Shown here one piece after another: positions 20,616 to 43,376 of a DNA stretch of 44,992 nt. Location: the IMG/VR virus record IMGVR_UViG_3300042545_001206, positions 1 through 44,992 of that record. One strand, written 5' to 3'. The notes under the pieces are model-generated. The model did no database searches, was not told the origin of the DNA, and saw only the letters and a program-made list of their open reading frames with translations. A program made the translations under genes and the position numbers. Positions within the stretch are counted from its first letter, which is position 1, and every line of letters starts with the position of its first letter. The DNA comes from a virus.

Positions 20616-21557
20616 TTACCACTTCTTGGCTCTTTTCGTTCTGGCGAACTTGGCATCCAGGCGGCGCTGATAGCTTTCGTCCTTCAGGTATCGCTCGTTG
20701 CCGTTGTCATCCTTGGCGTAGCGGTCCTTTCTCCAGTCCGCCTGTGTCTCGTAAACATCGGCTGGCTCGCTGGTCTGTGCCCCGCCCCCCAGATACTCGG
20801 GCTCCCTGGGGGCAGTGCCGGCGCGGGCCTGGAATGCCTGCAGCGCAAACTGCACCGCCAGCAGATTGCCGGTATCGAGGGCCCGCTGGTAGGCGATCTT
20901 CTCCTCTGGCGCCAGGTTGGCGGCGGCCCATTGGCTCAGCTTGTCGAAGGCGGCATCACCGCCGACCGACTGGCGCAGGGCCGCCACCACCTCGGGCTGA
21001 TCGTTCAGGCTGCCGGTGGCCGGTGCCGCTGCATCGGCTGGCTTGACGCCGGCCAGATAGGTTTCGATCAATGCCCTGGGCAGTCCACCCTTTTCGGCCA
21101 GGGCATCCACGTAGGCGGTGACATCCTCGCCGGCCTCGAACTTGGCGGCCATCTCAAAAGGGTTGACCTCGGCTTCTTGGAACCTGGCGGCCAGGGCTTC
21201 GCCGTAAACCTCGGCGCCACGCTCGGGGGTGTACTCCTCGGTCTCGGCGGCGGCCGGGGGTGTCTCGGTCTTCTCGCTGCGCTGGCCCTGCTGGCCCTGT
21301 TTGCGCTGCAGCTTCAGGTAAGCCTTCTCCAGTTCGGCCGGGGTTTCAAATTTGCCGGCCAACTTTGCCGGCTTGGCCTCGGGGGCAGCGGGCGCTTCCT
21401 CACCCTCGACCTCCTCGCGGTCGGGGACGCCTGCATCGTCCAGGAACCTGTCCAGGATGCTGATTTGCTTGGAGGACGCGGGATCGACCAAGGCCTTCAG
21501 CTCAGCCGGCGCATTAATCTGGTCAAGGGTCTTGGGGGGCGTGGCTTCAGTGGTCAT
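20616..21557 (-). CDS. Capsid assembly scaffold protein (T7 gp9-like)
   Basis: The 313-residue, acidic, Ala/Glu/Lys-rich protein sits between portal and capsid genes, the invariable scaffold position. It has an N-terminal disordered region, a helical part (ELEKAYLKLQRKQGQQGQRS), and a basic C-terminus (LDAKFARTKRAKKW) of the kind that binds capsid protein. The scaffold guides procapsid assembly and leaves before packaging. ATG 21557 overlaps the portal stop (ATGA). A start-associated motif (TCACCCGA) lies 10 bases before it, within the portal coding end. Confidence 0.88.
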   Translation of the reverse strand: MTTEATPPKTLDQINAPAELKALVDPASSKQISILDRFLDDAGVPDREEVEGEEAPAAPEAKPAKLAGKFETPAELEKAYLKLQRKQGQQGQRSEKTETPPAAAETEEYTPERGAEVYGEALAARFQEAEVNPFEMAAKFEAGEDVTAYVDALAEKGGLPRALIETYLAGVKPADAAAPATGSLNDQPEVVAALRQSVGGDAAFDKLSQWAAANLAPEEKIAYQRALDTGNLLAVQFALQAFQARAGTAPREPEYLGGGAQTSEPADVYETQADWRKDRYAKDDNGNERYLKDESYQRRLDAKFARTKRAKKW

Positions 21558-27013: not shown

Positions 27014-27097
27014 TTACATGCTCCAAAGAATGTGGTGGACGATGGCGGCAGTAATGCCAATGAAGAAGAAGAAGGCCGCGATGTTGTCTTGTGTCAT
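27014..27097 (-). CDS. Membrane microprotein 1 of 4, 27 residues
   Basis: ATG 27097 overlaps the stop of the coiled-coil gene (ATGA). The product begins MTQDNIAAFFFFIGITAAIV and ends HHILWSM: a short polar start followed by one hydrophobic helix. It opens a run of four tiny coupled membrane-protein genes filling the 306 bases between two longer genes. Confidence 0.6.
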   Translation of the reverse strand: MTQDNIAAFFFFIGITAAIVHHILWSM

Positions 27098-28359
27098 CCC
27101 TGCCCCCCTGGCGCCATTGCGGCCCAGTCGACCTTGATGGCATGGTGCAGGGTGCCGTCGATCAAGGCATCGGCTACTTCGGCGCGGGTCCGACCGGACA
27201 GGGCCTGCACCAGTTCGAGCCGTAGGGCAATCTGGGCATCGACAAGCGCCGCAGCCTCGGCGTCGGTTGCGGGGGGGATGAAAACTTCGCCGGTGCTCAA
27301 CGACCGGGCCAACCCCTGCACCACGGCACGGACGCCAGCGATGGCCTGATCGCTGATCTCGACGGCCGGGGCTGGGGCGGGTTGCGGGGGCGCAGGGAAG
27401 CCGCCTAAACGGGCCATGCCAAAGTCCATGCGGGCAGAACCCTCGTCAAGCAATACCGTCCCATCCCCCAGCGTGCAGGGAACCTCCGCCGGCTTGATCG
27501 CCAGCAGCGCCTCACCCTGCAGCGCATCAGCAACGGCCTCAGCATCCAGTGCCCTTTGGGTTGCCGCTGCCGCTTCAGCCTGGGCTGCCGCCACCTTCCG
27601 CTCGGCTTCCTCAATCACTTGCAGCGCCGCTGCATCGGCTGCCTCCTGTGCTTTGCGTGCCACCTCGGCGGCGGCATCCTCGGCCTCCTTGGCCGCCTTG
27701 GCCGCGGCATCCTTCTCGGCTTGGAGCCTGGCCTCCTCGCGCAACCGGGCCAGCTCGGCTTCCTTCTCCTCGGTCTCCTGCGCCGTGGCGTGCGCTGCCG
27801 TCAGTACCTGCATGGTGTCAGCCCACGCCGCCTTGGCCTCGATCTCAAACTCCTCCAGGCCGGCCAGATCCAGGGCTTTGATGTGCTCCTGGATCCCTGC
27901 AATCTGTTGCGACGTGGAGCCGAAGGGCAACCGCGCCGCATCCTTGATCACGTTGATTGTCTCCTGGTGCTTTGCCACCCGCTCGGCTTCCTTCCTGGCG
28001 ATCTCATCCAGGGCGGCCTTGTGTGGCTGGATCAGTGCCGCCACCTGCCCCTTCAATGCGTTCTTTAGTGCGTCAAGTCGCCTTCCTTCCTCTAGGACAT
28101 CGGCCTTGGCTTCATCGTGGGCCCTGTCAATGTCTCCGTTGTACGAACGGAGAGTGGCCAGATAGGACCTGCATTCCTTGTTTTCCTTTTTGTCTGCATA
28201 ATTAAACTTTTTACTTGGGGCCTCTTGCTTGGCCTGCGCAATGGTGCCGGCCAGCACCTGAAACTTGGTGATGACCGTGGTCGGTGTCACAACGACCAGG
28301 GCGTCAGCCGCTGCTGGCGCTTCCAGTGCCTCTGTTGCTGGTGCTTCTGTTGCTGTCAT
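27094..28359 (-). CDS. Long coiled-coil protein (DUF1351-like layout)
   Basis: The 421-residue protein starts at ATG 28359, immediately after the motif TCACCCGACA, with no Shine-Dalgarno. Residues about 30-150 have a repeating charged helix pattern (YNGDIDRAHDEAKADVLEEG, LIQPHKAALDEIARKEAERV) like the DUF1351 proteins found beside phage recombination genes. Residues about 190-285 are an uninterrupted Ala/Glu/Lys coiled coil. After a Pro-rich linker comes a small C-terminal helical domain. It follows a RuvC-like resolvase (ATGA overlap), so a recombination or replication scaffold role is likely. Confidence 0.65.
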   Translation of the reverse strand: MTATEAPATEALEAPAAADALVVVTPTTVITKFQVLAGTIAQAKQEAPSKKFNYADKKENKECRSYLATLRSYNGDIDRAHDEAKADVLEEGRRLDALKNALKGQVAALIQPHKAALDEIARKEAERVAKHQETINVIKDAARLPFGSTSQQIAGIQEHIKALDLAGLEEFEIEAKAAWADTMQVLTAAHATAQETEEKEAELARLREEARLQAEKDAAAKAAKEAEDAAAEVARKAQEAADAAALQVIEEAERKVAAAQAEAAAATQRALDAEAVADALQGEALLAIKPAEVPCTLGDGTVLLDEGSARMDFGMARLGGFPAPPQPAPAPAVEISDQAIAGVRAVVQGLARSLSTGEVFIPPATDAEAAALVDAQIALRLELVQALSGRTRAEVADALIDGTLHHAIKVDWAAMAPGGQG

Positions 28360-28850
28360 GTCGGGTGATTGGCTTTGGTTAGTTGATCAGCGGCGTAGAC
28401 CGCTACGGCCAGAGCTGACCACACATGGCTCTTAATGCCATAGGTGGGGCCTGGGTTCTTCTTGGTGCCGGGTGGTCCCAGCCGGTCGATCAAAGCCTGG
28501 CGGACGTTGGGATCCTTGGCTTTAGTGGTGCCGCATAGATGCAGCTTGATGTCCTTGCGATAGCAAAGGAAGACGGACTGGGGGCGCATGTACCCCCTGA
28601 ACTCTCCAATCCATAGGCAAGTGTCGAACACCTCTTTGCCTACCGGCATCCCGTAGCAGGAAATCATTTCGATTGCCACTATGGGCAATGATTTAGGGTC
28701 AAGCCCTGGGACAGGGGTATGCCTAAAGCGTGCAAGCAGGGTCTTTACGTCCTTGCTATCAATAACGCCATGCTCGGTAATCATGCCGCGCCTCATCACG
28801 ACAAACCCTGACTGAGCCGGCCCTGGATCTATCGCAAGAATCCCTGTCAT
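28356..28850 (-). CDS. RuvC-like Holliday junction resolvase
   Basis: The 164-residue protein starts at ATG 28850 with a strong GGAGGAGG site. It has the RNase H-like layout of RuvC: first strand with catalytic Asp (GILAIDPGPAQSGFVV), second acidic residue in IVAIEMISCYG near residue 60, and a C-terminal helix with a further acidic residue (SHVWSALAVAVYAADQL). These fit the D, E, D metal-binding set. It would cut branched replication intermediates before packaging, replacing T7 endonuclease I (gp3), which lies in the same region in T7. The longer frame upstream is not used. Confidence 0.78.
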   Translation of the reverse strand: MTGILAIDPGPAQSGFVVMRRGMITEHGVIDSKDVKTLLARFRHTPVPGLDPKSLPIVAIEMISCYGMPVGKEVFDTCLWIGEFRGYMRPQSVFLCYRKDIKLHLCGTTKAKDPNVRQALIDRLGPPGTKKNPGPTYGIKSHVWSALAVAVYAADQLTKANHPT

Positions 28851-29815: not shown

Positions 29816-30189
29816 CAAGCCTCTCGGGTATCATTGATATAGTTAATAATGTCGTGGATTGTATCCATTTCTTTTTTTAGGCCTTGCAGCAAGTCGGCAA
29901 TAGCTGTCTCTATCGCTGCGCTTGGAGAGTGGAAGGTGCGGAATGTAGCCTTCTGCCTTCCGTATTCATTCCCGTTAAAAGAACGAACAAATATGGTGTT
30001 TTCTGTTTCGGCTACGCAGTCAACCGTAGCTAAGGTAATAGGAGTTTTAGATTTGTACGCTGCCCTGCATTCGGCCAGGCTAGGCGGACAGTACAAGGTG
30101 ATCGATGGATCGTGGTTGACACGATTGGAATAAGCAGCTCGGGCCATTGATGCGTCGAGGTAAGTGGTTATGTGGGCGCTGGGATTCAA
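29815..30189 (-). CDS. Small protein of unknown function, 124 residues
   Basis: The frame opens with TTG 30189, overlapping the SSB stop (TTGA); the first in-frame ATG is at 30147, so the start is uncertain. The product is mixed alpha/beta (SLAECRAAYKSKTPITLATV, NTIFVRSFNGNEYGRQKA) and ends in an amphipathic helix (LQGLKKEMDTIHDIINYIND). GC content is lower than in the neighbours, suggesting recent gain. No family is recognised. Confidence 0.5.
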   Translation of the reverse strand: MNPSAHITTYLDASMARAAYSNRVNHDPSITLYCPPSLAECRAAYKSKTPITLATVDCVAETENTIFVRSFNGNEYGRQKATFRTFHSPSAAIETAIADLLQGLKKEMDTIHDIINYINDTREA

Positions 30190-30869
30190 AACGGAATGTC
30201 GTCTTCGTAAATGCCGCCTTCACGCGCAGGCCCGTCGTCCCACGGGACATCAGAGGCGCCCGTGGTTGTCCTCCCGGCCAGGGCCAGCACCTCTGGGCTA
30301 TTGGCCCTGGCCCCCTCCTCCGGTGGGCCGAATGCACCGGGGGCCACGGAATCAACTACATAAGGGGCATGGCGCAGGATGCGCACGGCGAGCAGGTTGA
30401 GGCTGAGCCCCTTGCCTCCGTCCTGGTTGTCCCACAGGTAGGCAGAGAAACCTACCTTCACCAGCGATCCATTGCCGATGGCTACGTTCTTGGGCCATGG
30501 CTGATTGGCTGCGTCCTCAACCATTGGCGGGGGAAGTTCCGCGCCATTGCGGGTAGCAATGTCCCGGTTAAAAGTGATCCGGGTTAGCCCGGTCTCATGC
30601 GACAAACCGTTTTGGTCTGTCTCCGTCTCTTTCTTCCATGGCCTTCCGTTGGGGCCATAGGCTGCGCCTTTGCCGAATTTCTCAACAAAAATGGCGTGCA
30701 AGGAGCCAATGAAAGCGGCGACGCTTGGGTCGAGTTCGGGATTGTCCAGTTGCAGAACAATCCCGTACTGCATTTTCTTGGCGCCAGTCGTCTTATTTAC
30801 TTTCTCCTTTGGCTGAAGAATGTTCGCAAACAAGCAAAGCCCTGGTGGGCTGACAAGCATTTCCGGCAT
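30186..30869 (-). CDS. ssDNA-binding protein (T7 gp2.5 / DUF2815 type)
   Basis: The 227-residue protein coats single-stranded DNA and recruits replication partners. It has an OB-fold-like core (QYGIVLQLDNPELDPSVAAF near residue 33, WPKNVAIGNGSLVKVGFSAY near 125-145) and a disordered, acidic C-terminal tail ending in DDIPF, the acidic-aromatic tip typical of gp2.5 and bacterial SSB. The length equals T7 gp2.5 (232). I chose ATG 30869, one base after the motif TCACCCGACG; a second ATG three codons later is possible. It heads the middle operon directly after the RNA polymerase gene, as in T7. Confidence 0.82.
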   Translation of the reverse strand: MPEMLVSPPGLCLFANILQPKEKVNKTTGAKKMQYGIVLQLDNPELDPSVAAFIGSLHAIFVEKFGKGAAYGPNGRPWKKETETDQNGLSHETGLTRITFNRDIATRNGAELPPPMVEDAANQPWPKNVAIGNGSLVKVGFSAYLWDNQDGGKGLSLNLLAVRILRHAPYVVDSVAPGAFGPPEEGARANSPEVLALAGRTTTGASDVPWDDGPAREGGIYEDDIPF

Positions 30870-30879
30870 CGTCGGGTGA
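30870..30879 (-). promoter_or_regulatory. Start-associated motif before the gp2.5-like SSB gene
   Basis: TCACCCGACG on the minus strand, one base before the chosen ATG; one base differs from the consensus TCACCCGACA. No Shine-Dalgarno is visible. Confidence 0.6.
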
Positions 30880-30930
30880 CTTGGTGAAAGGGTGTTGTTG
30901 ATTTGTGCTCCATGGCTGGAGCGCAAAATG

Positions 30931-30959
30931 ATGATGGCACCCCAACGTCAACTTGTCAA
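30931..30959 (-). promoter_or_regulatory. Candidate sigma70-type promoter for the middle operon
   Basis: On the minus strand a perfect TTGACA (30959-30954, overlapping the RNA polymerase stop) is followed after 17 bases by CATCAT (four of six matches to TATAAT). It would let the host polymerase transcribe the SSB-exonuclease operon. A 6-bp hairpin (GCTCCA/TGGAGC) lies just downstream. Confidence 0.35.
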
Positions 30960-33328
30960 CAAAACGCATATGGGTTTTGCCCAATGGCATCCCGGTCCAA
31001 GGTCCCCACCATCGGCGGCCTGGGGATGCCAACACCGCTGCGGGCCTTGATCTCGCTGCGGATCTGGGCCAGCCAGTCAGGCCAGTACAGCTCGCTGCTC
31101 TGCCGCATCAACTCCTCGGCCAGCCACGAGGCATTGGCGGCAGTGGTGGCAAAGCAGTCGTGGTTCGTAATGATTCCGTATCGCTGCTCTCCAGCCTTGT
31201 TGATAATGGCCTGGCAAAAGCTGCCATCAAAGCTGTGGATCAGATTTGCCATGGATCCCCTGGCGGTCGCCACTCCCCCCAGGGCGATCTCCGACGCCTT
31301 GGCGTCCACCCATCGGCGCTTCCCTGATACCGCCGTCCTGCCGACCGCCACCCGGTCGGGCTCGCGGCCCAGGCGCAGCAACATCCCGCTCGGTGCATGC
31401 CACTCGACGTGTTGTTGATGCCTGGCCACGGTGGCGGTGGCCTTCCTCATCCAGGTGCGCAGGGCCAGCACGCTGCCCAGTTCCGCCTCGAATACCGCCA
31501 TCACATGACGGGCCAGGTATTGGCTGGGCCGGATCAGGCGCTTCTCCCATTGGGCCGGCGGCAGGTTGGGGCAGTGCTCCTCCAGGTCCAAGGCCAGCCG
31601 GTCGGCCAGGGACAAAAAGCCAGCGCCGTAGCAGGTGGTCATGGCCGGGGCCTTCAACAATGCCCGATCGATGCCCACCTGCAGCCACTGCAGGGCCTGC
31701 CGCTGGTGATGCTCGGGCCCGGTGTCCATGTCCTGCCGCAACCGCGCTGTCACCAGCTCGGCCAGGTGCCCGTACAGATCGACCGGGGAATCCCCCGTCA
31801 CCCGGCACCGTGCCGCCAGCGCTGCATCACGGGCCAGGCAGGCAGTGATGCCGAACCCTGAGGCGTGTTGATCCATGCGCACCGGGCACCCGATCGGCTG
31901 CCACGGATCCACCAGCCAGGATTGAACGGCAACGCACACCTGCAGGAACTGCCACGGGTCCTTGGCATCCCGCCATAGCCCCAGCTGGCCCAGTGGATCC
32001 TCGGCGGCTGCCTTTAGGCGCTCGATCTCCCGCTTCCCCCATCGGCGGCGCTCTTCGTGGCTCGCCCGGGTCATTCCCCAATGACCGGCCGCTGCCCACA
32101 ACAGCCACTCGAACCCCTCTTCGCCGCAACGGTCACCGCGCAGGCCGATGCACGCCTTGGAGTAGTCGGGGCCCTGGTGAGTGGCGGCCCGGTTGGCGGT
32201 GTAGATCCGCCCCCTGAAATCGAACTCGTAGCTGAACCAAGCGGGGCCCTGGCCCAGGGCCTCCAGCCCCCGGATGCCGACCTCGATGCGCCGGCGGCGG
32301 CCACCGTTCTCGGCCCGGTCCCGCTGGGCAGCCACCACCTGCTGCCGCCAGGCATTGATGCCGTCCTTGCCCACCTTCTCCTCGGGGCGGGGCGGGGCCA
32401 CCAGCGGATCCCGCCGCACCGGGAACAACGGCAAGCCTTGGTCCCAGGCGGTGCGCACCAGGCGAACCATGGGGGCGTCGATCTCCATGGGCTGGCCCTG
32501 GAGCTGGTTGGCCACCGCCATCTGAAGGGCCAATGGCTGGTGCTCCAGGTAGGGGGCCCGGACGACGAGGGGTTTGCGGTCACCACCCCAGAAGCCGGTC
32601 CACGGCTGCGGGGGCTCCAGCATCGGCAGCCTGCGAACACCGCCCCTGGGGGCCGGCGCTGCGGCGATGATTGCCCGGGCCTCGGGGCTGGCGGCCACCA
32701 GGTCGCCGGTGCGCACCAGCAGGCCGATGGCTTGGAGCAGGTCTACCAGTAGGCCGCCAACTTCGAAGCGATCGCTCCGGCTCCAGGGCTCGACCGGCTG
32801 CCCCAGGGCCCGCAGCTGCCGCGGCGTGGTGATTGCCGTTTTCTTCATGCGGCGGTTCATCAGCCGGAGGGTGCCGGGGCGATCGCGTGCCAGGCCAGCA
32901 CCACGCAGTTCCAGCTCCAAGGCCACACCCATGCTCGATGCCAGGGCGCTGTGCTTGTGGGTCTGGGAGATCCCATCGATGGCATGGGTCAGCGCCGTGG
33001 TGACGAGGGCCTTGATGCCCCCCTTGCCGCCGAAGTTGGCCAGGGCGAACAGTGCGCAACGGTGCGGGCCTGGCACCGATGGGTTCAAGAACAGCAATTC
33101 GACCGCCTCGCGCAGGCGTTCGCCATAGGCCTCGAACAGCAAACTGCCGTAGGTGGTGTCAGCTTCCCGGCCCTTCTCCCGGCTGCGACGCTGCCAGGCC
33201 ATGGCGGCCTGATCGGCCTGAATTTGCGCCGCAGACTTGCAGGCTTGCTGGCCGGTAGACAAACGGGATTTGGGGGAGGGCCCCGAAATACTGGCGCAGA
33301 CCGCAGAGTTTCCACTCCACGGATGCAA
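30956..33328 (-). CDS. Single-subunit phage RNA polymerase (T7 gp1-like)
   Basis: The enzyme transcribes the middle and late phage genes. Catalytic motifs of the T7 family are present. Motif A has its Asp in RMDQHASGFGITACLARD near residue 485. Motif B is RALLKAPAMTTCYGAG near 565, with R, K and Y at exactly the T7 627/631/639 spacing. Motif C is TNHDCFATT near 722, with HD. The chain ends in NPYAFC, like the FAFA end of T7. The open frame gives 790 residues from a TTG start at 33328, but no start has a good ribosome site and that TTG overlaps a hairpin. The true start may be TTG at AAACGGG-side codon 24 or the ATG of MAWQRRSREKG. Confidence 0.93.
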   Translation of the reverse strand: MHPWSGNSAVCASISGPSPKSRLSTGQQACKSAAQIQADQAAMAWQRRSREKGREADTTYGSLLFEAYGERLREAVELLFLNPSVPGPHRCALFALANFGGKGGIKALVTTALTHAIDGISQTHKHSALASSMGVALELELRGAGLARDRPGTLRLMNRRMKKTAITTPRQLRALGQPVEPWSRSDRFEVGGLLVDLLQAIGLLVRTGDLVAASPEARAIIAAAPAPRGGVRRLPMLEPPQPWTGFWGGDRKPLVVRAPYLEHQPLALQMAVANQLQGQPMEIDAPMVRLVRTAWDQGLPLFPVRRDPLVAPPRPEEKVGKDGINAWRQQVVAAQRDRAENGGRRRRIEVGIRGLEALGQGPAWFSYEFDFRGRIYTANRAATHQGPDYSKACIGLRGDRCGEEGFEWLLWAAAGHWGMTRASHEERRRWGKREIERLKAAAEDPLGQLGLWRDAKDPWQFLQVCVAVQSWLVDPWQPIGCPVRMDQHASGFGITACLARDAALAARCRVTGDSPVDLYGHLAELVTARLRQDMDTGPEHHQRQALQWLQVGIDRALLKAPAMTTCYGAGFLSLADRLALDLEEHCPNLPPAQWEKRLIRPSQYLARHVMAVFEAELGSVLALRTWMRKATATVARHQQHVEWHAPSGMLLRLGREPDRVAVGRTAVSGKRRWVDAKASEIALGGVATARGSMANLIHSFDGSFCQAIINKAGEQRYGIITNHDCFATTAANASWLAEELMRQSSELYWPDWLAQIRSEIKARSGVGIPRPPMVGTLDRDAIGQNPYAFC

Positions 33329-34128: not shown

Positions 34129-34391
34129 TTGCCCTCCAGCAGTGAAAGCTGGCCCGGCACTTCTGCCGGCGGCGGCGCTGGGCGCCTGCGATACGCGGTC
34201 TTCGGTGGTGGTGGGCTCAACTGGCGCCGGATCTCATCGCGCCAGATTTTGTACGGGTGCATGCTGCGCTGGCCGTAGGGGTAGGCCGCCAGCAGGGCGG
34301 CACGCAGGGCCTTGAGGTCCGTGGTGCCCACCCGCTGGATCACTTCGGCGATGATCGGACGGCAGTGGTCGCGCCAGGTGGTCCAGGCCAT
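34125..34391 (-). CDS. Small conserved phage protein of unknown function
   Basis: The 88-residue product starts at ATG 34391, overlapping the integrase stop (TGATG). Its core (WRDHCRPIIAEVIQRVG, LKALRAALLAAYPYGQR, HPYKIWRDEIRRQL) is a pattern I know from many small phage proteins of unknown function near replication genes. The tail is Pro/Arg-rich and ends PGQLSLLEGK, which resembles a sliding-clamp-binding peptide (QLSLL), an attractive link to the host replisome. This is an inference. Confidence 0.65.
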   Translation of the reverse strand: MAWTTWRDHCRPIIAEVIQRVGTTDLKALRAALLAAYPYGQRSMHPYKIWRDEIRRQLSPPPPKTAYRRRPAPPPAEVPGQLSLLEGK

Positions 34392-35380
34392 CACGCTGCC
34401 TCCAGCACCCGGGCACACTCGGCCAGGGCGTTCACGTCCACATGGGCGTAGCGCTGCACGGCTCCCAGACTTCTCCAGCCACCCCATTTCATCAGCTGAA
34501 ACATGCTGATGCCAGCCGATGCCAGCTTGGATGCGCAGGTGTGCCTGCAGCTGTGGATCACCAGGGCCGGATCGTTGATGCCGCAAGCTGCGGCGGCCTT
34601 GTCAAACAGGCGCTCGAACTGGTTGTAGGAGTAGGGCCAGACCCGGTGCCCTGGCCTGGCTGGCAGGTGCGGGCTGATGGCGTCCACGGCGCGCCGGGTA
34701 AGGGGCACGCTGCGAGCATCGCCGTTCTTGGTGTCGTGGAAGCTGACGGCCGGCTTGGTCAGGTTCACATCACCGCCCTTCAACTTTTCAGCCTCGCCCC
34801 AGCGGCACCCCGTCTCCAACAGCCAGACCAGTAAATCAGCCGCAGCGGGCTCCCCGTTGGCCTGGAACCACCGGGCCATGGCGTCCCGCTCCCAGTCGGC
34901 CACCACCCGGTCGCGGGTGTTGCTCTCCTTGAGCTGACGGGGCAGCCGTGGGGCGCTGCCGATCTTTCCGTGCAGCTGGGCATCGGCCACCATGGCCTTG
35001 ACGGCGCTCACTTTCTTGTTGATGGTGGCGGGCTGGTTACCTCCTGCCGCCAGCGCCTGCCGCCACCGGTCGATCTCCGGGGCATCGATGCTGGCCAAGG
35101 GAGTGGTGGGGCCGAAGAAATCGACCGCCGCCTTGGAATAGATGGCGGCCACCCGCTCGTAGCTGGTGTTGGCCCATCTGATCCGCAGGCTGAGGGTGCG
35201 GGCCTCGGCGATCGTGAATCCTGCGGGTGCTTCCTGCGCTGCCGCGCGGTGGGCGATGCGCTCCAGCAGCTGCGCCTCTGCTGCCATGGCCTCGGCCCTG
35301 GTCTGGCGTTGAGCCGTGAGTCGCTGGCCGCCAACGGAAACGTCAGCTATCCAGCCTTTTGCTGTCTTTCTAATCGTCAT
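34391..35380 (-). CDS. int: Tyrosine-family integrase
   Basis: The 329-residue enzyme catalyses site-specific recombination between attP and the host tRNA gene. It has an N-terminal arm-binding-like region, a SAM-like core-binding domain (residues about 60-150) and a catalytic domain with all expected residues: Arg in ETGCRWGEAEKLKG near 195, HSCRHTCASKLASAG near 275 (H-x-x-R), a following Trp/His region (WGGWRSLGAVQRYAHVD), and the nucleophilic Tyr in QRYAHVD. Start ATG 35380 directly follows TCACCCGACA and lies inside the end of the MarR-like gene. The attP core is about 1 kb downstream. Confidence 0.93.
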   Translation of the reverse strand: MTIRKTAKGWIADVSVGGQRLTAQRQTRAEAMAAEAQLLERIAHRAAAQEAPAGFTIAEARTLSLRIRWANTSYERVAAIYSKAAVDFFGPTTPLASIDAPEIDRWRQALAAGGNQPATINKKVSAVKAMVADAQLHGKIGSAPRLPRQLKESNTRDRVVADWERDAMARWFQANGEPAAADLLVWLLETGCRWGEAEKLKGGDVNLTKPAVSFHDTKNGDARSVPLTRRAVDAISPHLPARPGHRVWPYSYNQFERLFDKAAAACGINDPALVIHSCRHTCASKLASAGISMFQLMKWGGWRSLGAVQRYAHVDVNALAECARVLEAA

Positions 35381-35702
35381 GTCGGGTGAGTTGTTGGATT
35401 TGCTTGTATAAAAGCCGGCCTTTAGTGGTGAGACTAATAATGAACCGGCGCCCTTCCTCCTGATCTGGGGTAGTGGTTATCAGTCCTAGCCCTGGCTTGC
35501 CGTTGCGATGAACAGAAGCCAGGGCGTTAACGGTCCTGCTGACCGAGCTGTTGGCTAGGTCTAATTCTTCCTCCAGATCGCGGTAGCGGCACTGACCGCG
35601 ACGCCCCACCGCCAGGAACAAGCGGCAATGATGGAGCGGAACGTTTGCCGGATCGTCATACTGCCCCGAGAAAAGGGCCAGGACCATCTCCAACTGATCC
35701 AT
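35370..35702 (-). CDS. MarR-like winged-helix regulator
   Basis: The 110-residue protein has a winged-helix pattern: RYRDLEEELDLANSSVSRTV as the helix-turn-helix near residues 38-58, then a wing (LGLITTTPDQEEGRRFIISL) and a C-terminal helix (TKGRLLYKQIQQL). Its position just before the integrase suggests control of the integrase and early genes. Start ATG 35702 lies 142 bases inside the upstream frame. It overlaps the integrase start by 11 bases. Confidence 0.72.
   Translation of the reverse strand: MDQLEMVLALFSGQYDDPANVPLHHCRLFLAVGRRGQCRYRDLEEELDLANSSVSRTVNALASVHRNGKPGLGLITTTPDQEEGRRFIISLTTKGRLLYKQIQQLTRHDD
35380..35389 (-). promoter_or_regulatory. Start-associated motif before the integrase gene
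   Basis: A perfect TCACCCGACA on the minus strand whose last A is the first base of the integrase ATG. It also codes within the last codons of the upstream MarR-like gene. No Shine-Dalgarno precedes this start. Confidence 0.65.
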
Positions 35703-36314: not shown

Positions 36315-36489
36315 GGCGCTGAGCCTCCTCGTAGAGAAAGGCCCCCACGTAATCGCGCACGCGGGGCTTGCCCTTGGCCTTGGGGTACCGGGTCGGCCGT
36401 TGTGGTGGCCGTGGGTGCAGCCTGCCGGCCAGGGCGCAGGGCCCCAGCAGCAGGACCAGCAGCAGGAGGGCGACGATGGGGCCTGTCAT
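36301..36489 (-). CDS. Small membrane-anchored basic protein
   Basis: The 62-residue product starts at ATG 36489 with AGGAGAGG upstream. It begins with a hydrophobic helix (IVALLLLVLLLGPCALAG) that could be a signal anchor; the Cys is not in a good lipobox. The rest is Pro/Arg/Lys-rich (RLHPRPPQRPTRYPKAKGKP). The layout resembles small Rz1-like outer spanins, but its early-region position argues against a lysis role. It is probably an early inner-membrane peptide. Confidence 0.6.
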   Translation of the reverse strand: MTGPIVALLLLVLLLGPCALAGRLHPRPPQRPTRYPKAKGKPRVRDYVGAFLYEEAQRHERR

Positions 36490-36519
36490 TCTTCCTCTCC
36501 TAGTTCTTCTCTCTGGATA

Positions 36520-36897
36520 TCAGTCATCGCCCCAGGAGAGAATTCCCATGCCCATTATGGGTTGAGCCCAGTTTCCTGGGTCATGGCCCGCTGGCCATCC
36601 TGGGAAAGCACTTTCAAGTGCTTGGATCTGGACATAGAGCTTTTCCAACTGAGGAAAAGTTTTTTTGATGGTTCTGGGATTGTTCTTGTCCTCCCATGGA
36701 TAGAAAATTGTCCCCACCCCATAGGAGTAAACGGAAGAAGAGGGGCTATAGTCTTCTGCACCAGGGGCAAGATTCTCCAGGATATTTTCTTTTATTTGAT
36801 AGAGATCAGCTAAGGCTAATCTCCACCTACGGATTGCTGTCGATGGGGCTGAACCGGCGGCGCGAGTGAGCGAAGCGGCTGTTGTTGTGGCGGCCAT
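36520..36897 (-). CDS. Early protein of unknown function, 125 residues
   Basis: ATG 36897 has its own leader with a variant start motif (CCACCCGACA) 11 bases upstream and no Shine-Dalgarno. The N-terminus is Ala/Thr-rich (MAATTTAASLTRAAG), as in several leader-carrying genes here. The body has aromatic, low-GC-coded segments (VYSYGVGTIFYPWEDKNN, FPQLEKLYVQIQALESAF). No family is recognised. Confidence 0.6.
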   Translation of the reverse strand: MAATTTAASLTRAAGSAPSTAIRRWRLALADLYQIKENILENLAPGAEDYSPSSSVYSYGVGTIFYPWEDKNNPRTIKKTFPQLEKLYVQIQALESAFPGWPAGHDPGNWAQPIMGMGILSWGDD

Positions 36898-36907
36898 GGT
36901 GTCGTTC

Positions 36908-36917
36908 TGTCGGGTGG
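36908..36917 (-). promoter_or_regulatory. Start-associated motif (variant) before the 36520-36897 gene
   Basis: CCACCCGACA on the minus strand, differing from the consensus in the first base only, 11 bases before ATG 36897. Confidence 0.5.
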
Positions 36918-36927
36918 ATAGCAGCAG

Positions 36928-36977
36928 AGCGCTGCAGGGTGGCCGAGGGTAACCAGGGCCACCGGGCAGGGTTCAGG
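36928..36977 (-). repeat. Leader repeat, family 2, copy 1
   Basis: About 50 bases are repeated at 37334-37385 with one substitution and a two-base insertion. It contains an inverted repeat (GGTGGCC at 36938-36944, GGCCACC at 36957-36963) that can form a 7-bp hairpin in the mRNA leader, 40 bases upstream of the start. Confidence 0.8.
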
Positions 36978-36985
36978 TTGGGGCG

Positions 36986-37300
36986 TTAGCCGATAAGGCT
37001 GCCTTTTCTGATCAGCTTCCAGTCTCCAGGATCCTCCCCGGAATGATCAATCCACTCAGTGACGGCGGATTCAAGGTCTGGCTCGTGGCCGTGGTCCTCG
37101 CCCGCTGCCTCGCGTTTGGCGGCATCCATCACTTCTTTTGGGGGCACCGCTTTGTAGGTGGTGCCTGGCCTGCTCCCTTGCCAAAGAGAGTGAAAAGTGA
37201 GGATTGCGTAATCCGGGTAAATCTCTACATCGTAACCAGTTGAAGCGGCATCCGATGAGTAGGTTTTCGTGCTGGCGATCGGTTCGCGTGTGGCTGTCAT
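36986..37300 (-). CDS. Early protein of unknown function, 104 residues
   Basis: ATG 37300 is 12 bases after a variant start motif (TCACCTGACA). The protein starts MTATREPIASTKTYSSDAAS and continues with a beta-rich segment (YDVEIYPDYAILTFHSLWQG, GTTYKAVPPKEVMDAAKREA), then an acidic helix and WIDHSGEDPGDWKLIRKG. The strand-then-VPxxV pattern is faintly like the small KTSC domain, but I would not assign it. Confidence 0.6.
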   Translation of the reverse strand: MTATREPIASTKTYSSDAASTGYDVEIYPDYAILTFHSLWQGSRPGTTYKAVPPKEVMDAAKREAAGEDHGHEPDLESAVTEWIDHSGEDPGDWKLIRKGSLIG

Positions 37301-37311
37301 GGTTGGCTGTC

Positions 37312-37321
37312 TGTCAGGTGA
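37312..37321 (-). promoter_or_regulatory. Start-associated motif (variant) before the 36986-37300 gene
   Basis: TCACCTGACA on the minus strand, one base off consensus, 12 bases before ATG 37300. Confidence 0.5.
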
Positions 37322-37333
37322 AGGCAACGCGTG

Positions 37334-37385
37334 AGCGCTGCAGGGTGGCCGAGGGTTACCCCAGGGCCACCGGGCAGGGTTCAGG
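37334..37385 (-). repeat. Leader repeat, family 2, copy 2
   Basis: The second copy of the 50-bp leader repeat (see 36928-36977). The GGTGGCC/GGCCACC inverted repeat is conserved although the loop differs, which suggests that the structure is selected. Its left edge overlaps the ArdC stop codon. Confidence 0.8.
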
Positions 37386-38349
37386 CTTCAGCGGTTTCGA
37401 GTGGTGCCTCTGGTGCGATCAGGTCGGCAGCCCGCCTGGCATCGGTGAGCACCTTAAACAAGGTTTTTGGTCCCTCCTTCAGCAGTTCGGCCCAATGGTT
37501 GAGATAGGCCGCGTGGTTGGCGAACTCGCTGCCGATGGCCAAGCGACGGCAGACGATCACCGCCCCAAGCTCGGCCACCAGCTCTTCCCTGGCATAGCTG
37601 CGGGAGCCGGGCCCGCCATCAAGATCACGCTTGAGCCGTGAATCATGGCCGGTGCTGTGGATCATCTCGTGGGCCCAAGTAGCAGCGAAGGCCTCGCGGG
37701 AATCAAACGCCTCGTGCAATGGCATGCCGATCCTGTCGCGGGAGGGGCTGTAGAAGGCCTGAACGCCACCGAAGTCAGTTGGCACGCTCCAGCTATCGAG
37801 AACCGCTTCGGCAGCCTCCAGCCTGGCAACTGGCTCCTTCGGTGTTGGTGCCTGCCCCAGCGCTGCGGCGATCCGTTGCGCCAGGGTGGCGGCCGTCTCA
37901 TCGGTGGCACCCACCAGATCGCAGGCGTTGAACACCGGCACGATCTTGTAGGAGACCCAGGATTTGAGCACGGTTTCAGGGTTGCCCGTGTCTGGGTTGG
38001 TCCCCTCCTCCTCCCGCTTGTTCAGCTGGGGCCTAACGATCCTTGACGCACTGCAGCCCTTGCGAGGGAACCACCCCTCACCTTTGGCCTGGGCACCACC
38101 AAGCCATAGGGGAATCTGCGGGCCTGTTTTGGTCATGCTGCCCAGTTCAAGCAGAAGGGGATTCATGCCCCGGTACTCGTGGCCGGTGATCAGGTTGCGG
38201 TGTTCCCCTTGGTGCCCCTGCCATTTTTGGCGCCAGGGAGCAGTACCGGCTTCCATCAGCGCCACCAGATCGGCGCATAGTTTCTCCTCTGCCGTGGGTC
38301 CGTCGTAGGCCTTGCGGGCCTTGGTCTTGGGCTTCGTTGTTGCTGTCAT
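37381..38349 (-). CDS. ardC: ArdC-like antirestriction protein with zinc metallopeptidase domain
   Basis: The 322-residue protein has the two-domain ArdC layout. The N-terminal ssDNA-binding domain (residues about 20-145) contains LVALMEAGTAPWRQKW, NLITGHEYRGMNPLLL and KSWVSYKIVPVFNACDL. The C-terminal zincin domain (residues about 195-310) has AATWAHEMIHSTGHDSRLKR with the HExxH metal site and a following YAREELVAELGAVIV glutamate. Plasmid ArdC protects incoming single-stranded DNA from restriction; here it would act early after injection. ATG 38349 follows TCACCCGACA by nine bases. Confidence 0.85.
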   Translation of the reverse strand: MTATTKPKTKARKAYDGPTAEEKLCADLVALMEAGTAPWRQKWQGHQGEHRNLITGHEYRGMNPLLLELGSMTKTGPQIPLWLGGAQAKGEGWFPRKGCSASRIVRPQLNKREEEGTNPDTGNPETVLKSWVSYKIVPVFNACDLVGATDETAATLAQRIAAALGQAPTPKEPVARLEAAEAVLDSWSVPTDFGGVQAFYSPSRDRIGMPLHEAFDSREAFAATWAHEMIHSTGHDSRLKRDLDGGPGSRSYAREELVAELGAVIVCRRLAIGSEFANHAAYLNHWAELLKEGPKTLFKVLTDARRAADLIAPEAPLETAEA

Positions 38350-38357
38350 CGTCAAGG

Positions 38358-38406
38358 TGTCGGGTGAATAGCTGCCAGAGGGCAGCAGAGGGCCCGGTGT
38401 GGGCCC
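38358..38406 (-). promoter_or_regulatory. Family 1 leader: double GGGCCC, hairpin and start motif before ardC
   Basis: In minus-strand order: GGGCCC (38406-38401), GGGCCC (38395-38390), hairpin GCTGCC/GGCAGC (38386-38371), then a perfect TCACCCGACA (38367-38358). The same order recurs at 39066-39111. This fills the 67-base gap between the ssb and ardC genes. Confidence 0.75.
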
Positions 38407-38416
38407 AGTGCTGACT

Positions 38417-38728
38417 TCAGGTGGTAGCCGTGGACTGGCCCAATGGTTCCAGGCGATCAACCACGACCGCCAGATTCTCCGATTGCTTCAAGTTGGCAAA
38501 GGTGCCAATAATGCCAATTAGGTGGCCTTGCTTTACGTGATCAGCGGCAATCTGCGCTTGTTTGCCCCATAGTTCAAGATCAAACAACCTAGGGCCGTCA
38601 AATTCAGGGCCCCAATTGATGCCCATAGTCAATGTTGCGCGAATAGCGCCGGACTCGTAGTAGATGACAGCGGGGTCAGTGGTGGCGCGGCCAACAAGAG
38701 TGACCGATTGGAATGATTTAGCGGCCAT
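38417..38728 (-). CDS. ssb: Bacterial-type single-stranded DNA-binding protein
   Basis: The 103-residue OB-fold protein starts MAAKSFQSVTLVGRATTDPA, a standard SSB/PriB-type first strand. It continues with IRATLTMGINWG and LFDLELWGKQAQIAADHVKQ, then GHLIGIIGTFANLKQSENLA, all in SSB order. It lacks the acidic C-terminal tip, so it may not recruit host partners in the usual way. It is a second SSB in addition to the gp2.5-type protein and sits beside ardC, a pairing known from conjugative plasmids. ATG 38728 follows TCACCCGACA by 11 bases. Confidence 0.85.
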   Translation of the reverse strand: MAAKSFQSVTLVGRATTDPAVIYYESGAIRATLTMGINWGPEFDGPRLFDLELWGKQAQIAADHVKQGHLIGIIGTFANLKQSENLAVVVDRLEPLGQSTATT

Positions 38729-38732
38729 GATT

Positions 38733-38915
38733 TCAAGGTGTCGGGTGAGAGTTGAACAGTGGGCCAAGCACGCTGCCATCAAGGGCTAGGTGCCCCTGCG
38801 TGGGCTTGGCGTCGATCGTCTGCGGGCTCCACTCCTGCGAGGGGCCAGGGAGGCCAGGGAGTGGATCCATCCGGTATCTAGCGGGCTTGGGTGCCCTTGG
38901 GATGCGACGGGCCAT
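38733..38915 (-). CDS. Small basic, Pro-rich protein, 60 residues
   Basis: ATG 38915 lies four bases after the previous stop. The product (MARRIPRAPKPARYRMDPLP and on) is basic at the N-terminus and Pro/Gly-rich throughout, with no clear fold. Its last codons overlap the start motif of the ssb gene. Function is unknown. Confidence 0.45.
   Translation of the reverse strand: MARRIPRAPKPARYRMDPLPGLPGPSQEWSPQTIDAKPTQGHLALDGSVLGPLFNSHPTP
38739..38748 (-). promoter_or_regulatory. Start-associated motif before the bacterial-type ssb
   Basis: A perfect TCACCCGACA on the minus strand, 11 bases before ATG 38728, inside the last codons of the 38733-38915 gene. No hairpin precedes it here. Confidence 0.65.
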
Positions 38916-38919
38916 GGCG

Positions 38920-39054
38920 TCAGGCCTCCAACAGCTCGTGCAGCAGCTGGCGGTATGCGGCTTCGAGGGCTGGCCGTGGCATCCGGCAGGCCAGGCACAC
39001 AGGCAACCGGTTTGTCAGCCAGCCAGCCAGCCACAGAAAAGAGAAGTTCGTCAT
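38920..39054 (-). CDS. Small protein of unknown function, 44 residues
   Basis: The frame runs from ATG 39054 to TGA 38920-38922. It begins with a hydrophobic, Trp-rich segment (MTNFSFLWLAGWLTNRLPVC) followed by CRMPRPALEAAYRQLLHELL. It carries a complete family 1 leader and start motif 12 bases upstream, the main reason to accept so short a gene. It may be membrane-associated. Confidence 0.5.
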   Translation of the reverse strand: MTNFSFLWLAGWLTNRLPVCLACRMPRPALEAAYRQLLHELLEA

Positions 39055-39065
39055 CGGTCAGTCGG

Positions 39066-39111
39066 TGTCGGGTGAGTGCTGCCGAGGGCAGCAGGGGCCC
39101 AAGGCGGGCCC
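39066..39111 (-). promoter_or_regulatory. Family 1 leader: double GGGCCC, hairpin and start motif
   Basis: In minus-strand order: GGGCCC (39111-39106), GGGCCC (39100-39095), hairpin GCTGCC/GGCAGC (39092-39078), then a perfect TCACCCGACA (39075-39066), 12 bases before ATG 39054. It closely parallels the ardC leader. Confidence 0.75.
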
Positions 39112-39130
39112 GTGATGCCGTCTGGTGGTG

Positions 39131-39463
39131 TCAGGCGACCCGCTGGCGACGGCTGCGGCGTGCCACTGGTGCAGGAGCCGCTACGGCCGCCTCAAGCTCG
39201 TCTGCAGCGGCCGCCAGGTCCGCATCTGCAGCATCTGCAGCAACACGCAGATCAGCGATCGCTGCCAGTGCCAATGCATCCATGGATTCCATGGATGCAT
39301 TGGATGCCGGTGTCGCTGGCTCGCGGGGAATGAAGCGATCCAGGCGAACCAGCACCAAAACCAGCACCACCACCCACGCCAGCCCCTTGGCCAGGGTGAA
39401 CGCGGCAGCCCACCCCAGCAGGAGCCCGCGCTGGCCGGGTGTCGTTGTTGTCGTTGTTGTCAT
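39131..39463 (-). CDS. Single-span membrane protein with helical tail
   Basis: The 110-residue product from ATG 39463 starts with a Thr run (MTTTTTTTPG), has one strong transmembrane helix (GLAWVVVLVLVLVRLDRF, residues about 28-48), and an Ala/Asp/Glu-rich helical tail (LRVAADAADADLAAAADELE) ending in a basic RRSRRQRVA. The layout is that of an inner-membrane anchor with a coiled coil, as in i-spanins, but the early position makes a host-membrane takeover role as likely. A perfect 33-bp palindrome lies inside the gene. The start motif is eight bases upstream. Confidence 0.6.
   Translation of the reverse strand: MTTTTTTTPGQRGLLLGWAAAFTLAKGLAWVVVLVLVLVRLDRFIPREPATPASNASMESMDALALAAIADLRVAADAADADLAAAADELEAAVAAPAPVARRSRRQRVA
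39271..39303. repeat. Perfect 33-bp palindrome
   Basis: Two 16-bp arms (CCAATGCATCCATGGA and its exact reverse complement) flank a single central T at 39287. It lies within the membrane-protein gene and codes for a near-symmetrical NASMESMDA. It could form a cruciform or a long RNA hairpin, or bind a dimeric protein. Confidence 0.9.
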
Positions 39464-39470
39464 CGGTCGG

Positions 39471-39494
39471 TGTCGGGTGAACACTGCAGCAGTG
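39471..39494 (-). promoter_or_regulatory. Start motif with hairpin before the first minus-strand early gene
   Basis: A perfect TCACCCGACA (39480-39471) lies eight bases before ATG 39463. Directly upstream is a small hairpin, CACTG-CTG-CAGTG (39494-39482). No Shine-Dalgarno is present. Confidence 0.65.
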
Positions 39495-41475: not shown

Positions 41476-41495
41476 GGTGGCTGAGTCAATCATCT

Positions 41496-41505
41496 TGTCG
41501 GGTGA
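41496..41505 (-). promoter_or_regulatory. Start-associated motif in antisense orientation, upstream of terminase
   Basis: A perfect TCACCCGACA on the minus strand, followed two bases later by an ATG that opens a 190-codon frame antisense to 40903-41489. I judge that frame to be non-coding, so this copy may mark an antisense transcript start or be a chance match. Confidence 0.35.
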
Positions 41506-41513
41506 AAGGCAGG

Positions 41514-41547
41514 CAAAGCCCCACGGCCCTGAAAGCCGGGGGTTTTG
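41514..41547 (+). terminator. Long-stem hairpin before the terminase start
   Basis: CAAAGCCCC (41514-41522) pairs with GGGGTTTTG (41539-41547), a 9-bp stem with one G-U pair and a 16-base loop. The terminase GTG follows three bases later. It could attenuate transcription or hide the start; the T-run is within the stem, so a classic terminator is uncertain. Confidence 0.4.
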
Positions 41548-41549
41548 CT

Positions 41550-43376
41550 GTGTCTGAGCGCTACCCGAACTCCATCCTTCCAGAAGAACTGGAATCATTC
41601 CCATACTTCCTTGCCTGGGGGATGCGGGAAACCGGGCTGATCGGCCCGGAGGAAGAGCCCACCAGGATGCAGCTGCTGATCGCTGACTGGCTGAATCACG
41701 AAGCAGGCGGGGCCTCCATCACGGCCGCCTTTCGAGAGGCGTCAAAGTCTTACATCGCTGGCTGGGCCGCGCTGCACCGGCTAAGCCTGGATCCGTTCAA
41801 CGAGAAGGTGTTGCTGACCGGTGCCACGGCCAAGAAGCCGACTGAGGTCAGCAGTTGGATGCAGAAGACCGTTGCGGCGGTAGAGCTTTTCGAGCCTTTG
41901 CGGCCACGGCGTGATCAGCTGTCTTCGGTGATTGCGTGGGACGTGGGGCCCAGTTCGATCGACCAAGCCCCAAGCGTGCGGGTCTCGGGGATCCTTTCCC
42001 CTGGCCTGACCGGTTCCCGTGCCACCTTCATCCTGCCGGATGACGTGGAGAACGAAAGCAACAGCATCACGCTGCTCAAGCAGCAACGGCTGGCGTCGAT
42101 CTTCAACGAGCTGGTGGCCATCTTGAAGGTGCCGGCCCCGGGTCAGATGAAGCGCTCCATCCGGGTGCTGGGCACCCCGCACATCGAAACCAGTTTGTAC
42201 CTGGAGCTATCGCGCAACCGCGGCTATGGGATCCGCTATTTCCCGGCCCGATACCCAAACCCCAACGACGAGAACAGCTGGGGTTGTTACGACGGCAACC
42301 TATGCCCGCAGCTGGCGGGAGAGGTCCAACAGCACCCATGGCTGATTGGGATGCCGACCGACCCGGAGCGGTTCCCAGAGGAAGTGCTGCTTGAAAAGGA
42401 GCTGAGGGGCACCAGGGCATGGGTGCAGCTTCAGTACCAGCTCAACTGCCGGCTGAGCACCGCCGAGAAGTACCCCTGCCGCCTGGGCGACCTGCTGGTG
42501 TTGAGCCTGGACGGCAAGGCGCTGCCGGAGCTGCTGGCGTGGAGCGGCAGCCCAGAGCAGCGCATCAACCCGTTCGGCGTCAAGAGCGAGCTGCAGTGCG
42601 TGGGCATGGGCTCCGATCGCTTCTATCACCGCCCGGTGATGCAGGGCGGCTGGCTGCCACGGTCGGAGGTGTGGCGAACGGTAATGGCGATCGACCCATC
42701 GGCCCGGGGCCACGACGAATTGGCCTGGGCGGTGCTGGCGGAGCTGAACGGCAACATGTTTGCGCTGGACTGGGGGGGCGAGCGAGACGGTTTTGAAGTT
42801 AAAACGCTGAAGCTGTTGTGCAACAAGGCCAAGCAGTGGGGCGTTCAAGTAGTGGCGCCCGAACCCAACTTTGGCGGCGGCATGTTCAATCAGCTTTTGC
42901 TGCCACACATGCAAGAGATTTATCCGAACTGCTCAATCCTGGGGCCCGACGAGGTGCCATGGAGCACGGCGCAGAAGGAAGTCCGCATCGTGAACACCGT
43001 GGCTCCCCTGGTGCAGCAGCACCGGCTGGTGGTCAACGAGGCCCGAATCCAGTCGGAATGGGAGGAGGCCGAGCTGGACCCCGAGACCGGACACAAGCGG
43101 ACGCTGATGTTCCAGCTCAGTCGGATCACAACCGACCGCAACTGTTTGGAATGGATCGACCGGCTCGATGCCCTGGCGATCGGTTGCGCCTGGTTTGAGG
43201 AATCAGCGGCTCAGGACCAAGTGAAAGTGACGGAGCAGCGCAATCAAGAGAAGCTTCAGGCCGTTATGGACGCGATCGACGACGAATCAGGGCGTGGTAT
43301 CGAGGCCCTGGCCCTGGGGCTGCCACTCAACGGCTACCACGGCGGCCGAGCTGTCGGCGGCCTCAAGCGCCGCTAA
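41550..43376 (+). CDS. terL: Terminase large subunit (T7 gp19-like)
   Basis: The 608-residue motor cuts and packages DNA. The N-terminus (FPYFLAWGMRETGL, then PTRMQLLIADWLNH) matches T7 gp19. A Walker A-like loop with a deviant sequence (TAAFREASKSYIAGW) is near residue 60, a Walker B region (RATFILPDDVEN) near 165, and the coupling motif (VLGTPHIETSLY) near 210. The nuclease domain has Asp in MAIDPSARGHDE near 380 and LDALAIGCAWF near 540. I chose GTG 41550, directly after a hairpin; an alternative GTG lies at 41502. The gene runs opposite to the structural genes and overlaps the small terminase gene tail to tail by 90 bases. Confidence 0.92.
   Translation: MSERYPNSILPEELESFPYFLAWGMRETGLIGPEEEPTRMQLLIADWLNHEAGGASITAAFREASKSYIAGWAALHRLSLDPFNEKVLLTGATAKKPTEVSSWMQKTVAAVELFEPLRPRRDQLSSVIAWDVGPSSIDQAPSVRVSGILSPGLTGSRATFILPDDVENESNSITLLKQQRLASIFNELVAILKVPAPGQMKRSIRVLGTPHIETSLYLELSRNRGYGIRYFPARYPNPNDENSWGCYDGNLCPQLAGEVQQHPWLIGMPTDPERFPEEVLLEKELRGTRAWVQLQYQLNCRLSTAEKYPCRLGDLLVLSLDGKALPELLAWSGSPEQRINPFGVKSELQCVGMGSDRFYHRPVMQGGWLPRSEVWRTVMAIDPSARGHDELAWAVLAELNGNMFALDWGGERDGFEVKTLKLLCNKAKQWGVQVVAPEPNFGGGMFNQLLLPHMQEIYPNCSILGPDEVPWSTAQKEVRIVNTVAPLVQQHRLVVNEARIQSEWEEAELDPETGHKRTLMFQLSRITTDRNCLEWIDRLDALAIGCAWFEESAAQDQVKVTEQRNQEKLQAVMDAIDDESGRGIEALALGLPLNGYHGGRAVGGLKRR

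Follow-up and report, generated by a model that had tools for sequence, protein, structure and literature searches.

Introduction

In cluster K mycobacteriophages, short asymmetric repeats, the start-associated sequences (SAS), lie a few nucleotides before the start codons of non-structural genes (Pope et al. 2011, PMC3203893). They occur in one orientation, are rare outside this phage group, and some copies have an upstream inverted repeat that differs between subclusters (PMC3203893). The consensus given for SAS and the extended start-associated sequences (ESAS) is GGGATAGGAGCCC, with 17-bp inverted repeats; according to the authors, the ESAS arms do not support RNA pairing (PMC3203893). The early transcript of phage T7 is cut by RNase III at five sites (PMC4858673), translational coupling and ribosome-controlled attenuation have been reviewed (PMC12548453), and the Syn5 genome has only two promoters, each 15 bp long with a fixed +1 (PMC3950665). 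Here we analyze the leaders of the early genes in IMG/VR virus record IMGVR_UViG_3300042545_001206 (44,992 nt; this whole stretch is called the window) and describe a hairpin element that spans the distance from the stop codon of one early gene to the start motif of the next.

Results

Four hairpin leaders of the window are copies of one structural family. The earlier note, made from the letters alone, had sorted them into two families: first, the leaders before ATG 38349 (GGGCCC-acacc-GGGCCC-GCTGCC-ctct-GGCAGC-TCACCCGACACC, minus strand) and ATG 39054 (GGGCCC-gcctt-GGGCCC-GCTGCC-ctc-GGCAGC-TCACCCGACACC, minus strand), and second, a repeat of about 50 nt (GGTGGCC-loop-GGCCACC, with the loops ctggggtaaccctc and ctggttaccctc) before ATGs 37300 and 36897. 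All sequences it quoted, including a CACTG-CTG-CAGTG hairpin before the 39463 gene, occur where stated, on the minus (coding) strand. The division into two families does not hold, since a single covariance model (R1), trained on members of both, fits both. In the window the model finds the four leaders in question, with E values from 2.9e-11 to 9.4e-4, and one weak match elsewhere (E 0.27). In each copy an outer stem (arm1/arm2) encloses a middle stem, which gives a long hairpin with internal loops. A third arm (arm3), outside the structural model, adjoins the start motif and repeats arm1, so that arm2 is able to pair with either of the two. The hairpins are located as follows.

39482-39494, minus strand: short hairpin CACTG-CTG-CAGTG, upstream of the motif of ATG 39463; outside the covariance-model family.
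39074-39119, minus strand: stop-to-start element before ATG 39054 (R1, 26.1 bits, E 9e-4), with the sequence GGCATCAC-GGGCCC-gcctt-GGGCCC-TGCTGCC-ctc-GGCAGC.
38368-38415, minus strand: stop-to-start element from the SSB gene (stop 38417-38419) to the ArdC-like gene (ATG 38349) (R1, 39.6 bits, E 1.5e-6).
37323-37379, minus strand: stop-to-start element from the ArdC-like gene (stop TGA 37381-37383) to ATG 37300 (R1, 62.2 bits, E 2.9e-11); arm3 CGTTGC pairs with arm2 GCAGCG with one G-U wobble.
36917-36971, minus strand: stop-to-start element from the open reading frame (ORF) 36986-37300 to ATG 36897 (R1, 51.1 bits, E 5.9e-9).

The position of the element between genes is highly regular among the 132 distinct copies on which all counts per copy rest. 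A TGA lies exactly 1 base 5' of arm1 in 111 of the 132, and in 103 copies a stop at this distance closes an ORF of at least 30 codons. The triplet before arm1 is fully pairable with the three bases that follow arm2 plus 1 nt, mostly TCA, in 88 copies, which places the stop codon in the base of the hairpin. A next ATG is present for 126/132 copies, at a median of 21 nt past the element (interquartile range 19-23). The earlier note's idea of a unit serving both the gene before and the gene after is supported by the stop and start distances, which show the unit connecting one gene's end with its neighbour's start. The third arm is specific to its own copy: arm3 is fully complementary to the arm2 of the same element in 84/132 copies, compared with a mean of 20 (maximum 31) after exchange of arm2 among copies.

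Compensatory changes in the stems, which had been suggested as a check on function, are seen in the covariance and pair counts. The seed alignment comprised 30 leaders, four of them from the window, with two stems common to all. In a plain MAFFT alignment, 96.8% of the paired cells of the seed are pairs, as opposed to 74.7 +/- 1.5% in shuffles, and double changes occur at 9 of the 12 pairs. The covariation score of the seed is 0.529 versus 0.154, with slid versions at 0.10 or less, and RNAalifold recovers the same stems as the pair counts. A stem finder was positive for 61/275 motif leaders, compared with 18/340 control starts and 42/825 shuffled sequences. Because many of the seed leaders had come from this stem finder, the pair count was redone on the matches of a sequence-only model; this alignment is 97.5% paired (78.7 +/- 0.8% in the control), a recount that, the seed being unchanged, removes alignment bias and not all sampling bias.

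The covariance model, whose training members came from the same loci, yields 162 matches in 83 searched sequences, every one on the coding strand; many of these matches are therefore close to the seed. It has 0 matches in control sequence totalling 756 kb, made up of unrelated viral contigs, T7 early DNA and Syn5. The control contigs were viral contigs from a pattern scan for motif plus ATG only, in which each contig listed had one match, as by chance. No Rfam family reaches its gathering score in the window; the long non-coding RNA family KCNQ1OT1_1 (36374-36526, plus strand) was rejected as spurious, being far under the cut-off and on the non-coding strand. The element defines a structured RNA family that Rfam lacks and of which this phage lineage has at least 132 distinct copies. 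Relatives keep the hairpins together with the genes, and the loss of hairpins from retained genes, named beforehand as an argument against function, did not occur.

RNA folding predicts a competition between two pairings of arm2. In free folding the mean probability is 0.70 for arm1-arm2 and 0.21 for arm2-arm3. With the first 14 nt masked to represent a ribosome sitting on the stop codon, the predicted arm2-arm3 probability rises from 0.21 to 0.91.

The second component of the leaders is a short motif directly before the start codon. TCACCCGACACC occurs four times exactly on the minus strand of the window and 0 times on the plus strand, with 0 in a reversed control; allowing up to 2 mismatches gives 11 matches versus 4.5 expected. 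That the motif is above chance follows from its retention in relatives, where TCACCCGAC occurs 63 times in sense and once in antisense, with an ATG-ORF at most 17 nt away for 51/63. Likewise, TCACCCGACA, the motif of the window's clade (clade A), which is common to clades A and B, has 52 coding-strand occurrences across 16 related or candidate records and a single one on the opposite strand; the control gave 0 matches. The motifs of the window are listed below.

39469-39480, minus strand: start motif TCACCCGACACC before ATG 39463, the first early gene (110 aa).
39064-39075, minus strand: start motif TCACCCGACACC before ATG 39054 (44-aa ORF 38920-39054).
38737-38748, minus strand: start motif TCACCCGACACC before ATG 38728 (SSB gene); hairpin element absent.
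38356-38367, minus strand: start motif TCACCCGACACC before ATG 38349 (ArdC-like gene).
37312-37321, minus strand: variant motif TCACCTGACA before ATG 37300 (104-aa ORF 36986-37300).
36908-36917, minus strand: variant motif CCACCCGACA before ATG 36897 (125-aa ORF 36520-36897).
35378-35389, minus strand: TCACCCGACATG, running into the ATG of the integrase gene 34391-35380; relatives keep the motif.
30870-30879, minus strand: TCACCCGACG, immediately 5' of ATG 30869 (ORF 30186-30926, downstream of the RNA polymerase gene).
28357-28368, minus strand: TCACCCGACATG, running into the ATG of ORF 27094-28359.
21565-21574, minus strand: TCACCCGAGA (1 mismatch), upstream of the 313-aa gene 20616-21557, which adjoins the portal-like gene 21554-23275.

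The claim that each early gene carries its own hairpin plus motif holds for several genes and fails for others: the SSB gene has the motif only, and the ORFs 38915, 36489 and 36314, which have Shine-Dalgarno (SD) sequences, have neither. Most late genes lack the motif. Other relatives carry different words in the same place (CCACCTACC, CAACAACC, CAACCAACC, CACCACACC, CCAACCACC), and on the sense strand the word of every clade has little G and is rich in C and A. An unbiased screen for 8-mers with strand bias ahead of ATGs returned mostly C/A-rich words of this kind in relatives and none in Syn5. In Synechococcus phage S-SRP02, CAACAACCACC precedes several early genes and GGAGG is found at many late genes.

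Predicted pairing to the 3' tail of 16S rRNA separates motif genes from the rest. Within the window, the mean is -0.9 kcal/mol for 9 motif genes and -5.4 kcal/mol for 31 others (p 0.002); the corresponding values for S-SRP02 are -0.8 and -6.3 kcal/mol (p 0.017). Gene calls were our own from open frames for the window and those of the depositors for S-SRP02, so that some start positions may be wrong. The energies fit a motif that stands in for a missing SD signal, and for this reason the ribosome-site role proposed by the earlier note also fits. Motif regions are predicted to be unpaired to a fraction of 0.79 (0.43 for comparison), and the leaders are predicted to be more structured than other starts (z -2.06 versus -0.37). 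A scan of GTDB genomes for motif leaders gave 18 scattered single matches, none titled as a cyanobacterium, and hence no sign of a host feature.

Several further occurrences were noted. A copy of TCACCCGACAAG at 41494-41505 (minus strand), present too in the relatives G002 and G012, abuts an ATG opposite the terminase gene start and adjoins a hairpin flanked on both sides by A- and T-tracts. In the relatives L189, L192, L194, L196 and L197 the start motif has turned into long (ACC)n tracts before many ATGs, and at L145:3503-3530 a tandem start motif, TCACCCGACACCTACTCACCCGACACC, stands immediately 5' of an ATG. L151 and L149 (records G007 and G008) conserve a TCACCCGACA with no downstream ORF (position 5091 in reversed L151 and 7262 in L149) beside GCCCCCCTGCTGCAGCAGAGAGGCCCCC.

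The leader region lies on the minus strand upstream of the T7-like RNA polymerase (RNAP) gene (30956-33328), which is also where T7 keeps its early genes. It codes for an ArdC-like antirestriction protein (37381-38349; phrog_7245, E 1e-67) and an SSB (38417-38728; PF00436, E 5e-8) amid small ORFs of no assigned role. The first early gene (ATG 39463, called from an open frame) has no family match; inside its ORF lies a perfect 16-nt inverted repeat with a 1-nt loop (39271-39303; CCAATGCATCCATGGA / TCCATGGATGCATTGG). In four relatives (L257:10822-10902, L193, L195 and L180) the first early gene has a conserved leader of its own, unlike the stop-to-start element, with GGAGAGAACGTGCTA and a long hairpin followed by the motif; this is possibly the main early promoter region. 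The window further encodes a tyrosine integrase (34391-35380), whose matches are ordinary phage integrase families, and a T7-type terminase (41502-43376). The integrase and a MarR-like helix-turn-helix protein are conserved across the phage group. Clade A RNAPs are 95-98% and clade B RNAPs 49-50% identical to that of the window. When the whole window was compared as DNA with the phage collection, no match was obtained; the nearest cultured phage in the collection is the freshwater-lake phage S-SRP02 (integrase 56.5%, RNAP 39.5% identity), and the words motif, promoter and hairpin are absent from the text of the S-SRP02 paper.

Discussion

Our analysis documents the structure and position of the element, from which we infer its mechanism. 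With a probability of about one half, the leaders are one RNA-level intercistronic stop-to-start element on the polycistronic early mRNA of a T7-like phage lineage that bears an integrase and is related to S-SRP02, and the element would process or couple early genes and supply an SD-independent start. It resembles a standard connector controlling early-gene processing or translation. The long hairpin (arm1, middle stem and arm2) would be the signal on the joint early message. It could serve as a T7-like processing site, cut by RNase III or a cyanobacterial equivalent, or in translational coupling, where a ribosome on the upstream stop codon would mask arm1; we regard the two as about equally likely. 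In either case arm2 would be handed to arm3, after a cut by re-pairing at the new 5' end, and the resulting small hairpin would guard the 5' side of an open, SD-independent start. The start motif itself may be an unstructured ribosome landing site or may be read by a clade-specific factor. A more specific version is tentative at best: a phage-specific three-arm RNA switch seated at the upstream stop codon and thrown by the terminating ribosome, followed by a clade-specific SD-independent start read by a phage-encoded factor. As most early gene cassettes share the connector, such a switch would leave early genes exchangeable while keeping them coupled.

A number of observations weigh against the interpretation as a processing or coupling element. 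In 3/4 window elements the minimum free energy structure is already the two-hairpin form (middle stem plus arm2-arm3), so that the long hairpin is not dominant there. Since motif and ATG are exposed in both folded states, a simple on/off switch is not evident. The wobble test is mixed, with 62 G-U versus 30 A-C in the model-fitted stems but 20 versus 28 in arm2-arm3, and wobble asymmetry was dropped as proof of action at the RNA level. Most seed members were chosen with the stem finder, which inflates the arm1-arm2 and middle-stem counts in the seed. Finally, recombination among copies could account for some of the conservation, given that alignment ends among four close relatives fall within leaders in 14/33 cases (21.7% expected, p 0.006).

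The earlier note had allowed for a promoter. Among the alternatives, it is unlikely that the motif is a promoter of the phage's T7-like RNAP, which would yield nearly leaderless mRNAs with the hairpin as the 3' end of the preceding transcript. The motif does change in concert across each genome and differs by clade, and clades A and B share TCACCCGAC together with a near-identical specificity-loop core (RTAVSGxRRW) at only 50% overall RNAP identity. This co-variation was promising by eye and failed at matched overall identity, where the specificity-loop windows do not track motif class (ranks 147-372 of 388); CCAACCACC, moreover, occurs with unrelated specificity loops. The experimentally known Syn5 promoter ATTGGGCACCCGTAA also contains CACCCG, but neither of the two Syn5 promoters sits just before a start codon, and the Syn5 RNAP is 23% identical to that of the window; with two copies only, Syn5 was rejected as a promoter model. 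Information in the motif is limited to about 10 nt, and neither its flanks nor an initiating base are conserved. Its distance to the ATG varies from 0 to 17 nt with several genes having the motif overlap the ATG, and it is absent from most late genes.

In an L5-type stoperator system a phage repressor binds and transcription stops. By analogy, the motif could be a one-directional DNA operator bound by a lysogeny repressor such as the MarR-like protein beside the integrase. The conservation of both proteins and the asymmetric, single-orientation motif would suit such a role, which we nevertheless consider improbable: the sites lie 0-17 nt from start codons, the composition of all clade words is that expected of an unpaired mRNA site, and the adjoining paired arms covary freely in sequence, unlike a protein site.

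We see equally little reason to regard the leaders mainly as recombination linkers, i.e. shared sequence that enables the exchange of early genes between cassettes. The excess of alignment ends speaks for it, and G002, G004 and G012 carry the same upstream gene and leader with different genes after it; compensatory pairing, the third arm, the fixed stop-codon distance and the loss of SD sequences would all be left unexplained. Cassette exchange at the leaders is real but modest, and may be a by-product of the element. Intrinsic terminators, likewise raised in the earlier note and suggested by GC-rich hairpins immediately 3' of stop codons, are highly improbable because TTTT occurs within 40 nt after arm2 in 0/132 copies. 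An integron-like attC reading was also discarded, given stems of freely varying sequence and an integrase whose matches are ordinary phage families.

The stop-to-start element, as a processing or coupling signal, would be of interest in several respects. It offers a readily testable link between stop and start codons, and S-SRP02 is a cultured freshwater Synechococcus member of the element-bearing lineage. It is also a natural case of SD-less starts in phages whose other genes often use SD, and it may account for swaps of early cassettes without breaking expression.

SAS and ESAS are the closest described arrangement. As in SAS, a short asymmetric repeat in one orientation, scarce beyond its phage group, stands a few nucleotides before start codons of non-structural genes, and part of the copies have an inverted-repeat feature upstream. 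In contrast, SAS has an SD core that pairs with the 16S rRNA 3' end, whereas the motif here lacks an SD and appears to replace it; compared with ESAS, the stems covary strongly, a third arm exists, and sequence, host and phage type are unrelated. The missing SD core, the different sequence and the covarying stems set the element apart from the SAS/ESAS group. The Syn5 promoter has the CACCCG string in common with the motif and is not start-associated. Translational coupling and ribosome-controlled attenuation share the mutually exclusive pairings, one of which a ribosome at the upstream stop could block; here no state hides the downstream start or forms a terminator, and the downstream gene lacks an SD. 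The T7 early region itself has no match to the covariance model, and the T7 RNase III signals, the other close analogue, differ in that the element usually has a stop codon at the hairpin base and a third arm. The hairpins are nonetheless placed between early genes like those of T7 and form a long duplex interrupted by internal loops. The outer stem of 6 and middle stem of 6, often with TGA/TCA pairs and an inner stem, amount to a T7-type hairpin of about 20 bp with an internal loop.

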